Below are positions 49,637 to 53,299 of a stretch of 64,000 bases of DNA, one piece after another (within the stretch, counting starts at the first letter, position 1; every line of letters begins with the position of its first letter). This DNA is from Hyphomicrobium sp. LHD-15. Lineage in GTDB: Bacteria; Pseudomonadota; Alphaproteobacteria; Rhizobiales; Hyphomicrobiaceae. The stretch is from positions 806,001 through 870,000 of the forward strand of contig NZ_JAVIFT010000001.1 in assembly GCF_031157355.1 (NCBI RefSeq). Direction: 5' to 3'. The notes under the pieces were generated by a model. It was not told where the DNA came from. It saw only the letters and a list, made by a program, of their open reading frames with translations, and made no database searches. Position numbers and translations under genes: made by a program.

Positions 49637-49711
49637 TGGTGGGCACTACAGGGATCGAACCTGTGACCCCTACCATGTCAAGGTAGTGCTCTACCGCTGA
49701 GCTAAGTGCCC
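49637..49711 (-). tRNA. tRNA-Val (GAC)
   Basis: A 75-base cloverleaf including an encoded CCA end. The acceptor stem is GGGCACT/AGTGCCC, the D arm begins TTAGCTCAGCGG, the anticodon loop is CTTGACA with anticodon GAC, and the T arm contains GGTTCGATCC. No intron or mismatch is seen in the acceptor stem. Confidence 0.97.
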
Positions 49712-50285: not shown

Positions 50286-50671
50286 GAGCTTTCTTACTCG
50301 GGATGTCGACTTATCGGGGATAGCGCCAATGGCCACATGAATCTGACGCCAGTTTGGTAAATGGAACGTGAAGCCTCGACAGCGTGGGTAGTGTCTCCCA
50401 CATCTTGACTGAAAACACAGCAAAAGGCGGGCCAGGACCAGCGCGGCGTGCAGTTTACCGCATTTTTCCACGGTGGGGTTGCGAAATGCTTTGCCCGGCG
50501 TGGACAGCGCGAGGCGAGGTTGGCACACTGCACCTTCGTTCGTGTCGAAATGCGCCGCTTCGACACGAACGGTCGTGCGAAAGCGCAAAACGTGTCAGCA
50601 TGAGACGGCAGCGGCATGGGCTTCTCCACTTCGCTTTCCGGCGACAAGGCCCTCGCGGTGAACAGGACCAG
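50286..50671. other. Divergent region between cpdR and the amidohydrolase gene
   Basis: About 390 bases holding the perfect inverted repeat at 50538-50570 and no convincing gene. The plus-strand frame is open through it but starts without a Shine-Dalgarno. Confidence 0.45.
50538..50570. repeat. Perfect 12-bp inverted repeat
   Basis: GTTCGTGTCGAA at 50538-50549 and TTCGACACGAAC at 50559-50570, with a 9-base loop and no T run. It may be an operator for the downstream gene or an RNA hairpin in its leader. Confidence 0.6.
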
Positions 50672-51571
50672 ATGACTGCGCAGATGCCCACACCGATCAG
50701 TCCCGAACTCGATCCGCCGTTCTCGATCCTGACGCCGAAGGTTCAGAACGCGCCGTTCATCCTGTGCTCTCCGCACTCGGGACGCATCTACCCCAAACAC
50801 TTCCTCGCGCAATCCCGCCTCGATCCCATGACGCTGCGGAAGTCCGAGGATTGCTTCGTCGACGAATTGTTTCAGGGCGCTGCTGAATTCGGCGTTCCGC
50901 TCATTGCCGCGCGGTTTCCGCGGGCCTACCTCGACGTGAACCGCGAGCCCTACGAGCTCGATCCGGAATTGTTTGCGGATCCGCTGCCCGATTACGCCAA
51001 CAGCAAATCCGTCCGCGTGGTCGGCGGGCTCGGCACGATCGCGCGCATCGTCGCGGACGGCGAGGAAATCTATCGCACGCGGCTCAGCGTCGACGAAGCG
51101 CTCGCGCGCATCGAACAGTTGTACTTCCCATTTCATGCCGCACTCGAAGCGCTGATCGAGCAAACGCGCGCGCAGTTCGGCTATGCCGTACTGATCGATT
51201 GCCACTCGATGCCGTCCGCGCAAATGGCGCAAAGCAGCGGCCCGCGGCCGGATTTCGTGATCGGGGACCGTTTCGGCGCGGCCTGCGATCCACGGCTCAC
51301 ACGGTTCATTCGGGATACGCTCCTGACGGAAGGCTACGACGTGCAGCTCAACCGGCCCTATGCGGGCGGCTATATCACCGAGCACTACGGCCGGCCCTAT
51401 CGCGGTGTTCAGGCGGTCCAGATCGAAATCAACCGAGCGCTCTATCTCGACGAGCTCAATTTCAAACCATCGCTTGGCTTCCGCAGGTTGAAGATCGATC
51501 TGACACGGATCTGCAATATGTTGTTCTCGGCGCTGCCGGCCATCCTTGAGCAGCGCGCCGCCGCCGAGTAA
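50672..51571 (+). CDS. N-formylglutamate amidohydrolase family protein, copy 2
   Basis: A 299-residue member of the same family as the protein at 45474-46313, but from the longer HutG-like branch. FILCSPHSGRIYP, ARFPRAYLDVNREPYELDPELF, VLIDCHSMPS, DFVIGDRFG and AGGYITEHYG are recognisable, with the likely metal ligands in the PHSG and DCHSM motifs. The ATG at 50672 has AGGA six bases upstream. It stands next to cpdR, a neighbourhood I recall from other Rhizobiales. Confidence 0.9.
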   Translation: MTAQMPTPISPELDPPFSILTPKVQNAPFILCSPHSGRIYPKHFLAQSRLDPMTLRKSEDCFVDELFQGAAEFGVPLIAARFPRAYLDVNREPYELDPELFADPLPDYANSKSVRVVGGLGTIARIVADGEEIYRTRLSVDEALARIEQLYFPFHAALEALIEQTRAQFGYAVLIDCHSMPSAQMAQSSGPRPDFVIGDRFGAACDPRLTRFIRDTLLTEGYDVQLNRPYAGGYITEHYGRPYRGVQAVQIEINRALYLDELNFKPSLGFRRLKIDLTRICNMLFSALPAILEQRAAAE

Positions 51572-51656
51572 TCAAAAGCGCTGTGGCCGATAAGAATGGC
51601 GCCTTCGCAAAAAGCGCGGCGCGTCTTTTTCTGACGGAATAAAATCAGCCCGGAAT

Positions 51657-51733
51657 AAAAAAAGGGCCGTCCAATGGACGGCCCAAGTCTAGGGAGGAAA
51701 CGCCCAAGGAGGGCTCGTGATCCCATGGGGATG
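51657..51733 (-). ncRNA. mmgR: mmgR/suhB-family (alpha-r8) small RNA, copy 1
   Basis: On the minus strand the sequence reads: small GCCC/GGGC hairpin, then GTTTCCTCCCTAGACTT, then the terminator GGGCCGTCC/GGACGGCCC with T7 (51657-51663). The UUUCCUCCCU core is the conserved single-stranded motif of the Rhizobiales mmgR (suhB, Rfam RF00519) family as I recall it; in Sinorhizobium mmgR limits polyhydroxybutyrate storage. The 3' end is set by the T run; the 5' end is estimated from the usual length near 77 bases. Confidence 0.85.
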
Positions 51734-51954
51734 GCGAAAGCCATGGCCACGGTCTCACAGTTCAAATCTATGCTGCAGCGCCGCAAACCGCAAGCCCCCA
51801 CGTCGGCAATTTTTGCTGCAATGCGCTACGCGCGATCATTAAGCAACACCACCTAGGCCTTCTCAGTGGCTGACCGTCCGGAACCGGATCATCTGCGGAC
51901 CCTGTTTTTCTCTTTGATTTCTGTGCGCTACAGCGTCGCAGCCCCGTCAGGCAC

Positions 51955-52033
51955 AAAAAAAAGGGCCGTCCAAGTGCGGACGGCCCAAGTCTAGGGAGGA
52001 AACGCCCAAGGAGGGCTACGACGGCCGAGCCAA
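51955..52033 (-). ncRNA. mmgR: mmgR/suhB-family small RNA, copy 2
   Basis: The same order of elements as copy 1: GCCC-TCCTT-GGGC hairpin, UUUCCUCCCU core (complement of 51993-52002), terminator stem GGGCCGTCC/GGACGGCCC with a different loop (GCACTT on the minus strand) and a T8 run. The segment from the hairpin through the core matches copy 1 almost exactly; the flanks do not, so each copy likely has its own promoter. Confidence 0.85.
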
Positions 52034-52198
52034 GCCCGGCGGATGTCGCACTGCAAAATATCGTCGATACGAATTAGAAAGGAAGTGCAAAAACTGCAGA
52101 GCTGCCATTACAGGCGCGTGGGGCAGAACGTTCGCAGTTTGAGGAGGTTGTGTGACGGTGCGACAAACTTTGCGATCGAACAAAGATGCGTTGCCGTC

Positions 52199-52276
52199 AA
52201 AAAGAGGCCGTTCGAACGAGCGAACGGCCCAAGTCTAGGGAGGAAACGCCCGTAATGGGCTGCGGTGGCGAAGAAG
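52199..52276 (-). ncRNA. mmgR: mmgR/suhB-family small RNA, copy 3
   Basis: The most diverged copy. The core UUUCCUCCCUAGACUUGGGC is unchanged (complement of 52227-52246), but the first hairpin has a new loop (ATTAC) and the terminator stem is now GGCCGTTCG/CGAACGGCC, with both arms changed together, followed by TCTTTTT. Such paired change supports RNA function. The 5' end is estimated and may lie inside the hairpin at 52260-52300. Confidence 0.82.
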
Positions 52277-52300
52277 TGCTTCCTCGGGACCGCAGTTTTT
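52260..52300 (+). terminator. Terminator-like hairpin at the 5' side of mmgR copy 3
   Basis: CTGCGGT at 52260-52266 pairs with ACCGCAG at 52289-52295, with an inner GAAG/CTTC stem, and TTTTT follows on the plus strand. It overlaps the region where copy 3 should begin on the other strand and lies 193 bases before the phosphatase gene, so it may be an attenuator of that gene or part of the sRNA. Confidence 0.5.
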
Positions 52301-52492
52301 GTATGCGCCTGTTCGGCCGAAGCGGCAACTTCAGCCGTGCTTTGACGGTCAATTACGGTGAATATGGTGCGGCGTCGCAACACAGTGCTTTCGTGCTACG
52401 CGTTCTACTCGAAAACGATGTAAATTTCTGAACAGTTGTTACTTTCGTTCTGCCCGAATGCCCGACTTCAACTTAAGCTGCGGAAAATCATC

Positions 52493-53299
52493 GTGAGTTT
52501 ACCTTCTCGCTCGCACTTCGCCGATCTGCTCTCGCTAGCCCACGACCTGGCCGACAGCTCTCGATCGGTGATCCTCCCCCAGTTTCGCAAGCAGATGGCC
52601 GTCGCCAACAAGGCGGGTGCGGCTGCGTTCGATCCGGTCACAAAAGCGGATCGCGGGGCCGAACGAGCGATCACGCGGATGATTCGTGCACGAGAGCCCG
52701 ACCACGGCATCGTCGGCGAGGAGTTCGGGCGGCACAACGAGGACGCGCCCTATCAATGGATCATCGATCCGATCGACGGCACGCGCTCGTTCATCACCGG
52801 CACGCCGATGTGGGGCACGCTGATCGGCCTCCTGCATGACGGCGACCCGGTGCTGGGCCTGATGGATCAGCCCTTCACCGGCGAGCGCTTCTGGGCGGAC
52901 AGGGCGGCGGCCTACGCCCGCACCAGCCTGGGCAAGCCGCGAAAAATCCGGACGCGGGCCTGCGGGCGCTTGTCGGATGCCCTGATGATGACGACGAGCC
53001 CCGATCTCTTCGAGCGGGGCGTGGAGGCGGACGGCTTCGCCCGCGTAAAGCGTGAGGCGCGCATGACCCGTTACGGCGGCGATTGCTACGCCTATTGCCT
53101 GCTCGCGCACGGCCTCGTCGATCTCGTCGTCGAATCCGGCCTCAAGAGCTACGACATCGTGGCGCTCATTCCGATCGTCGAGCGGGCCGGCGGGCGCGTG
53201 ACGACGTGGGACGGCGGCTCCGCCACGTCGGGCGGACGCATCGTGGCCTCCGGTGATCCGGTGCTGCACGAGCGCGTGCTAAAGCTGCTCAACAAGTAG
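52493..53299 (+). CDS. hisN: Inositol-monophosphatase-family enzyme, HisN-like
   Basis: A magnesium-dependent phosphatase of 268 residues. GEEFG (first metal ligand), IIDPIDGTRSFITG and, late, GLKSYDIVALIPIVERAGG are the family signatures. The sequence resembles alphaproteobacterial histidinol-phosphatases (HisN), which do the penultimate step of histidine synthesis, but inositol-1-phosphatase (SuhB) activity cannot be excluded. GTG at 52493 has GGAAA upstream and fits the family start; the frame opens earlier at 52436. Confidence 0.85.
   Translation: MSLPSRSHFADLLSLAHDLADSSRSVILPQFRKQMAVANKAGAAAFDPVTKADRGAERAITRMIRAREPDHGIVGEEFGRHNEDAPYQWIIDPIDGTRSFITGTPMWGTLIGLLHDGDPVLGLMDQPFTGERFWADRAAAYARTSLGKPRKIRTRACGRLSDALMMTTSPDLFERGVEADGFARVKREARMTRYGGDCYAYCLLAHGLVDLVVESGLKSYDIVALIPIVERAGGRVTTWDGGSATSGGRIVASGDPVLHERVLKLLNK

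Follow-up and report, generated by a model that had tools for sequence, protein, structure and literature searches.

The closest described systems are MmgR of Sinorhizobium meliloti, an RNA that regulates carbon storage, and the SisA-D siblings of Caulobacter crescentus, both belonging to the alpha-r8 family of small RNAs (sRNAs). According to an excerpt of PMC12542648, PhaR (AniA) represses S. meliloti mmgR and binds its promoter, as seen by EMSA, at a palindrome with the core YGCRNYGCR. For Caulobacter, an excerpt of PMC12559287 describes that SisA represses many mRNAs, likely via a 10-mer common to SisA-D, and that CrfA, which is induced by carbon starvation, pairs with this core and lowers the levels of SisA-D. 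The same excerpt gives linkage to an FGase gene as usual for the alpha-r8 family and, citing Lagares 2016, reports several alpha-R8 copies in many genera, some of them adjacent; it also states that it is not always understood why bacteria keep sRNA siblings that are nearly identical. Besides, sponges of AbcR1/2 are raised as a prospect in an excerpt of PMC8844928. Among open-licence PMC papers, we found none joining MmgR and Hyphomicrobium, and none of the matches listed from the same source had a title that concerned an MmgR sponge in this group.

We compared the window (the whole 64-kb stretch of DNA from Hyphomicrobium sp. LHD-15 that was analysed) with Rfam 15 using cmscan and obtained three matches to RF00519 (suhB/MmgR, alpha-r8; gathering score, 41 bits), all on the minus strand and each with an E value of 1.8e-9 or less. 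An earlier note on this DNA had proposed three mmgR/suhB-type sRNAs between an amidohydrolase gene and a HisN-like gene and had asked for an Infernal search; this search was positive for all three, and domain models recognized both neighbors. The copies are numbered 1, 2, and 3 starting from the FGase side, and the array with its neighbors reads as follows.

50384..51571, plus strand: open reading frame (ORF) with an FGase (N-formylglutamate amidohydrolase) domain (PF05013, 265.9 bits); start tentative; convergent with the array, 3' end to 3' end
51649..51721, minus strand: copy 1 (slot C, FGase side), MmgR/suhB module with a GCCC-UCCUU-GGGC hairpin, core, and terminator (RF00519, 70.7 bits, and alignment)
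51664..51684, minus strand: terminator stem-loop of copy 1, then a T run at 51657-51663 (hairpin scan)
51691..51700, minus strand: 10-mer core UUUCCUCCCU of copy 1
51948..52023, minus strand: copy 2 (slot A, putatively the ancestral one), MmgR/suhB module (RF00519, 75.8 bits; slot by upstream profile)
51963..51986, minus strand: terminator stem-loop of copy 2, then a T run from 51962 down (hairpin scan)
51993..52002, minus strand: 10-mer core UUUCCUCCCU of copy 2
52191..52267, minus strand: copy 3 (slot B, hisN side), MmgR/suhB module with the loop AUUAC replacing UCCUU (RF00519, 58.5 bits; loop counts)
52205..52230, minus strand: terminator stem-loop of copy 3, then a short T run (hairpin scan)
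52237..52246, minus strand: 10-mer core UUUCCUCCCU of copy 3
52493..53299, plus strand: hisN, encoding a histidinol-phosphatase (inositol monophosphatase family) and oriented divergently to copy 3 (TIGR02067, 322 bits, cut-off 275); start by eye

At the level of sequence, the three minus-strand RF00519 sRNA genes are a confirmed observation. The core TTTCCTCCCTAGACTT is the same in all three copies, as had been claimed, and each copy has its own hairpin followed by Ts, with T runs that fit the expected ends at 51657, 51955, and 52199. The terminator stem of copy 3 carries U-A where copies 1 and 2 have C-G, which bears out the suggestion of a change on both arms for one pair. No fourth copy above the cut-off was found in the LHD-15 genome by the RF00519 search. 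A 29.9-bit suhB match at G000:C5:5312-5391, plus strand (locus L004, 1436-1572), overlaps BjrC1505 (RF02356, 71.3 bits) and was excluded from the copy count. Weak scattered suhB matches of about 30 bits also occur in further genomes of the genus, and one genus genome has an extra dispersed mmgR copy above the cut-off (G007:C2:43266-43338, plus strand, L206; 51.2 bits).

The predicted structure is that of the family: folds and alignment give the 10-mer UUUCCUCCCU as a single-stranded segment after a weak hairpin, followed by a Rho-independent terminator. The hairpin scan found 4 terminator-like sites in 51500-52600 (mean of shuffles, 1.9). When the RNAs with their 5' extensions were folded, z scores against dinucleotide shuffles were -3.5, -3.0, and -3.1 for copies 1 to 3, with 0, 2, and 3 of 200 shuffles folding as well, and the core was predicted to be unpaired at a mean of 0.63, 0.83, and 0.67; in the minimum-energy fold of copy 1, the 5' extension pairs with part of the core. 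For covariation we aligned 71 of 113 collected copies. The score of the two-hairpin structure as a whole was reached by 0 of 500 shuffles, and the terminator stem showed two-sided changes at 7 of 9 pairs with 97.5% of cells paired; the small first hairpin showed no two-sided change among these 71 copies.

The earlier note had taken the array to be unusual, and this claim was not supported. We counted RF00519 matches above the cut-off in 59 relatives, copies within 1 kb being taken as tandem. Three tandem copies were present in all seven other genomes of the genus, two or three in 23 of the 28 other family genomes (19 with two and 4 with three), and two in 3 of 24 genomes from other families of the order; a weaker third copy in G028 lies below the cut-off and outside these counts. 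With the LHD-15 genome included, 50 of 60 genomes had a match above the cut-off. By these sequence counts, the array is ordinary in the family, constant in the genus, and of a kind already known, as the adjacent copies mentioned in the excerpt of PMC12559287 also indicate.

The FGase linkage holds here as well, since a PF05013 gene adjoins the array. The nearest named relatives of its product were from Hyphomicrobium zavarzinii (75% identical across most of the query) and an uncultured Hyphomicrobium (84% in the best segment). A tRNA gene lies on the minus strand at 49640-49711, shortly upstream of the FGase ORF. We fetched 80 FGase loci and scored the core by a pattern allowing at most one error. 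It was found in 68, always on the strand opposite the FGase gene (8 loci with three copies, 20 with two, and 40 with one), and 12 of the 80 had no core by this pattern; these 12 are left out of the motif counts given below. The distance from the hisN-side copy to hisN was 214 to 298 bases, mostly 233 to 258, in the 27 of 28 multicopy loci where hisN was found. The loci share descent, so counts over them are not independent.

We then compared the regions upstream of the copies in eight genomes of the genus (the window, L034-L038, L005, and L015). Among these, L034 is H. zavarzinii, which also carries the triple array. Each copy has its own upstream region, conserved in alignment over all eight. 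Identity over 110 upstream bases within a slot across species averaged 0.70, 0.81, and 0.78 for copies 1, 2, and 3, and that between slots of one genome was 0.585 to 0.598, against a shuffled baseline of 0.579. A sigma-70 consensus scan of 51500-52600 gave no promoter; the boxes below were read from the conserved regions by eye.

51765..51793, minus strand: predicted promoter of copy 1, TTGCGG, 17 nt, TAGATT, in a region conserved in eight genomes (alignment; boxes by eye)
51817..51825, minus strand: PhaR-type motif CGCATTGCA upstream of copy 1, with a weaker CGCR half-site; CGCR-N-YGCA in 8/8 genomes
52047..52055, minus strand: PhaR-type motif TGCAGTGCG just past the predicted -10 of copy 2; 8/8 genomes
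52057..52062, minus strand: predicted -10 (GATATT) of copy 2 (alignment; by eye)
52083..52111, minus strand: block GTAATGGCAGCTCTGCAGTTTTTGCACTT, almost unchanged among eight genomes and upstream of copy 2, holding the dyad TGCR-N5-YGCA (alignment)
52300..52328, minus strand: predicted promoter of copy 3, TTGCCG, 17 nt, CATACA (alignment; boxes by eye)
52357..52382, minus strand: conserved block TGTTGCG..GCACCATATTCAC upstream of copy 3, intergenic with hisN and without the PhaR motif (alignment)

The predicted promoters would imply transcripts of about 100 to 110 nt with private 5' hairpins, compared with about 77 nt for the family. The block at 52357-52382 resembles a candidate operator and could serve both copy 3 and hisN.

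Profiles of the upstream regions were searched at E values up to 10, the members used to build each profile being omitted from the matches. That of copy 2 matched only the FGase-side copies of two-copy loci, the middle copies of three-copy loci, and single copies (14 matches at E below 1e-3, others weaker), and that of copy 3 matched only hisN-side copies (12 matches, including 4 with E values below 1e-3). The profile of copy 1 had no convincing match, the best E value being 0.018. We infer as the simplest history that a single gene was joined first by a hisN-side sibling in the family and then by copy 1 in the genus.

The PhaR-type motif YGCRNYGCR was counted in 150 upstream bases, with 100 dinucleotide shuffles as the control. 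In the genus it occurs upstream of copies 1 and 2 in 8/8 genomes each and upstream of copy 3 in 0/8 (shuffle means 2.2, 1.2, and 1.3). Elsewhere the same split was seen: 38/40 single-copy loci carry the motif (shuffle mean 7.1, maximum 14), as do 20/20 FGase-side copies of two-copy loci (shuffle mean 5.4) and 4/20 of their hisN-side copies (shuffle mean 4.0), and the counts for copies 1, 2, and 3 of three other three-copy loci were 2/3, 3/3, and 0/3. The one-base spacer stands out at single-copy loci, with 38/40 matches against at most 5/40 at seven other spacings; in slot A it gave 23/23, and five bases also gave 20/23. The motif of copy 1 is weak evidence, because the stricter form TGCR-N1-YGCR matches in 0/8 genomes and other spacings match in 4 to 5 of 8. 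The loop of the first hairpin follows the slots as well: UCCUU was found in 8/8, 8/8, and 0/8 of genus copies 1, 2, and 3, and in 20/20 FGase-side and 0/20 hisN-side copies of two-copy loci.

These data bear on the choice between dosage and separate triggers that the earlier note had offered. If the array served plain dosage, it would raise the amount of one RNA, and the promoter differences would be neutral drift after duplication; the pairing core is indeed the same in all three copies, and Qrr siblings may serve dosage according to the excerpt of PMC12559287. However, drift would not hold each upstream region over eight species while the three stay unrelated, and both the motif split and the loop sequence track the slot, and we regard dosage as unlikely. 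The evidence favours separate triggers, the half of that offer which stood, because the upstream regions are shuffle-like between slots yet kept slot by slot in eight genomes, and because a PhaR-type motif lies upstream of copy 2 and, in weaker form, of copy 1 and is missing at copy 3. That the siblings would not be plain dosage copies is, on this comparative evidence, new to us.

The motif upstream of copies 1 and 2 might instead belong to some other regulator that recognizes a similar TGC..GCA sequence. Consistent with this, the same half-sites recur nearby at other spacings: TGCR-N5-YGCR upstream of copy 2 in 8/8 genomes (52086-52098, at about -95), a five-base dyad between -92 and -95 in 19 of the 23 other promoters of slot A, and TGCR-N4-YGCR upstream of genus copy 3 in 8/8. 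PhaR, however, binds the homologous S. meliloti promoter (excerpt of PMC12542648), and phasin promoters of groups A and B in the same genomes carry the motif in 7/7 each. These phasin promoters were intended as the positive control, with further counts of 4/7, 2/7, and 0/2 for groups C, D, and E; the starts are uncertain and the counts stand without a shuffle control. The gene phaR (PF07879) is present in a single copy in each of the seven genomes searched. We consider another regulator unlikely.

The core is anti-Shine-Dalgarno-like, and this part of the earlier note was supported. We scanned the start sites of seven genus genomes for exact AGGGAGGAA-N0-9-ATG sites and obtained 18 rows (backward-read control, 2), 3 of which are the array itself; judged by eye, no gene recurred between species as a conserved mRNA target. 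Phasin start regions had short complements only, namely, GGAGGA in some group C genes and TAGGGAG (7 nt) in 2 group E genes examined. One possible target is an ORF whose ATG is preceded by AGGGAGGAAAC, an 11-nt complement of the core, at G000:C1:936563-936580, plus strand (L167). By eye the ORF resembles HflC.

A search for core complements found GGCCCAAGTCTAGGGAG as an exact match outside the array in 7/8 genus genomes; for an exact 17-mer, base composition predicts 0.001 chance matches per genome. The sites fall in two genes beyond the window, which we call X1 and X2, located in the LHD-15 genome as follows.

C1:905922-906039, minus strand: X1, between a coiled-coil-like ORF (weak Pfam matches only) and a TauE/SafE gene
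C1:983778 onward, plus strand: X2, flanked by an ORF taken by eye for proS and by a DUF1467 gene

X1 and X2 are complementary over 16 to 17 nt to CUCCCUAGACUUGGGCC, a stretch common to all three sRNAs that extends into the 5' arm of the terminator; the complement covers CUCCCU, which is 6 of the 10 core bases, and the downstream AGACUUGGGCC. In the LHD-15 genome, X2 has the exact 17-mer complement, and X1 deviates from it at the first base, so that its pairing with each sibling runs over 16 contiguous positions. Both genes thus carry what a CrfA-type sponge should have, a long complement to the shared core of the siblings. Within each gene, the aligned sequences (7 of X1 and 8 of X2) share a conserved stretch upstream, the complement, and a 3' hairpin. 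The 16-mer YCCAAGTCTAGGGAGH was found in 1 of 289 genomes from the class, namely, the LHD-15 genome, where it occurs twice (X1 and X2; backward control, 0), and this sample holds no other member of the family. The X1 and X2 loci (L207, L208, L214, and L221) matched no Rfam family at E values up to 1.

X1 was found in 19 of 36 family genomes, that is, in LHD-15, in 6/7 of the other genus genomes, and in 12/28 of the other family genomes (10 from the first search, with G026 and G011 added from a later search and inspected), and it was undetected by these searches in one genus genome (G002) and 16/28 family genomes. The matches in G028, G023, G013, G026, and G011 were weak (E values of 1e-5 to 1e-3), and R1 or R3 matches antisense on mmgR genes (G027 and G025) were dropped as artefacts. 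In a second even sample of the order, X1 was present in 16 of the 21 family genomes listed. X2 was found in 8/8 genus genomes and 0/52 others. Five weak R3 matches among 376 non-family genomes were rejected as X1: L278 and L280 had no complement by the scan used, and L281-L283 had no TTGAC promoter. The last three, from other families of the order, show a core complement with one to two mismatches, apparently followed by hairpins, and are perhaps other sponges or 3' untranslated regions.

The 17 aligned X1 sequences all carry TTGAC-N18-YANNNT upstream, at -70 to -83 from the complement; the pattern is permissive (spacing of 16 to 19) and stands without a shuffle control. The 3' hairpin of X1 had 85.1% of cells paired and a covariation of 0.482 versus 0.239 (0/500 shuffles), and two-sided changes occurred at 10 of 13 pairs (6/500 shuffles had as many), the structure tested being that predicted from the same alignment. 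All 19 genomes with X1 have at least two tandem mmgR copies, and X1 was found in 0/5 family genomes with fewer than two (a chance of 0.016 with kinship ignored), which is only a hint from sequence that X1 presence may be tied to tandem arrays.

When G-U pairs are counted along with standard ones, the X1 complement pairs at all 17 positions with one or more of the siblings in 12 of 17 genomes. Each of the remaining five has a single mismatch, at position 1 in G000 (the LHD-15 genome), at position 17 in G017, G022, and G023, and at position 2 in G028. In G024, GGACC of one sibling pairs fully with GGUCC of X1, and the other sibling does so via G-U; in G028, the third, below-cut-off sibling pairs poorly with X1, with 4 mismatches. 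The cofold gain went beyond all 60 shuffles for three of the six pairs (copy 1-X1, copy 2-X2, and copy 3-X2) and did not for copy 1-X2, copy 2-X1, and copy 3-X1. Duplex energies went beyond all 200 shuffles in 0/6 sibling-X pairs; they do not discriminate and were dropped as support. The complement is partly folded in X1 and X2 (mean unpaired, 0.43 and 0.47).

A complement of this kind equals the antisense strand of mmgR, and X1 and X2 could be relics of mmgR, inverted duplicates, or mRNA leaders that are mmgR targets by chance; the X2 region of LHD-15 lies within an 81-codon frame with a TTG start, and short frames cross the complement in other X2 sequences by eye. However, similarity to mmgR stops at the end of the complement, as judged by eye, X1 has promoter-like boxes in 17/17 sequences and a covarying 3' hairpin, and insertions and deletions between species shift the frame through the X2 complement (by eye). 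We find relics or leaders doubtful. Judging from their aligned sequences, X1 and X2 look like conserved, apparently non-coding genes resembling CrfA-type sponges, which is new to us.

Pairing is symmetric, and the relation might run the other way, with the MmgR siblings titrating X1 and X2, whose own targets would be what matters; in Caulobacter, SisA pairing seems to lower CrfA in carbon-rich medium (excerpt of PMC12559287). Yet MmgR is the wider of the partners, being above the cut-off in most of the genomes searched, whereas X1 is seen almost exclusively in the family and X2 in the genus, and we hold this reversal to be quite improbable.

Taken together, we think it probable that three differently wired MmgR siblings give one output and are countered by the candidate sponges X1 and X2. 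The sequences provide the family membership, the copy number, upstream regions that are conserved and private to each copy, the split of the motif between copies, and the conserved layout of X1. Three MmgR/alpha-r8 siblings, most likely Hfq dependent, would repress mRNAs by pairing UUUCCUCCCU with purine-rich ribosome-binding sites. Copy 2 may be the ancestral gene and appears to retain a predicted PhaR/AniA operator, so that the state of PHB storage should switch it; copy 1 would be younger, its PhaR-type site being weaker or displaced, and copy 3, beside hisN and without PhaR-type control, would answer to another signal. X1 and X2 would pair with CUCCCUAGACUUGGGCC and are, by analogy with CrfA and SisA-D in Caulobacter, most likely sponges removing all siblings together. 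In this scheme, transcription, PhaR binding, Hfq dependence, the targets, the order of duplication, and sponging are what we infer. The chances are about even that the Hyphomicrobiaceae possess a two-layer RNA circuit as a whole, with two siblings under the PHB-sensing repressor PhaR, one under another signal, and all opposed by sponges, X1 in much of the family and X2 in the genus only. If so, and if neither X1 nor X2 is a diverged CrfA, sponge control of alpha-r8 sRNAs would have evolved on at least two occasions besides that of Caulobacter CrfA.

Among known systems, MmgR of S. meliloti (RF00519) shares with this locus a score above the cut-off, the 10-mer core, the terminator, and the PhaR-type motif, the last with copy 2. 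It is present in one copy in S. meliloti according to the excerpt of PMC12559287, whereas here there are three with unrelated upstream regions, and copy 3 lacks both the motif and the UCCUU loop. AbcR1 and AbcR2 (alpha-r15) of S. meliloti are likewise tandem sRNA genes with anti-Shine-Dalgarno motifs, as described in an excerpt of PMC7143759. They belong to another family, whereas the three copies here are RF00519 at the gathering score, the best of overlapping clan members being shown. The SmelA075/SmelA099 RNAs are presumably the 'cuckoo RNAs'. They too are multicopy and have CU-rich anti-Shine-Dalgarno motifs, with CCUCCUCCC in each hairpin loop according to an excerpt of PMC3927594; the present RNAs are not of that type, having UCCUU or AUUAC in the loops and UUUCCUCCCU between the hairpins.

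The closest likeness is to SisA-D and CrfA of C. crescentus, where the excerpt of PMC12559287 likewise describes alpha-r8 siblings with unrelated promoters, one of them beside an FGase gene, and a separate core-complementary sRNA. In contrast to that system, the three siblings here form a tandem array at a single locus, and the candidate sponges number two. In predicted layout, X1, with its promoter-like boxes and covarying 3' hairpin, and X2, with a conserved upstream region and 3' hairpin in eight genomes, would fit a CrfA-type sponge gene. Their complement takes in CUCCCU plus AGACUUGGGCC and not the whole 10-mer. The question of why near-identical siblings exist becomes testable at one compact locus, which combines one core with three conserved and unlike upstream regions, a known operator at one and none at another. 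Should X1 and X2 prove to be sponges, this form of control over alpha-r8 sRNAs would not be a peculiarity of Caulobacter, and the Hyphomicrobiaceae would provide a second system for testing it.
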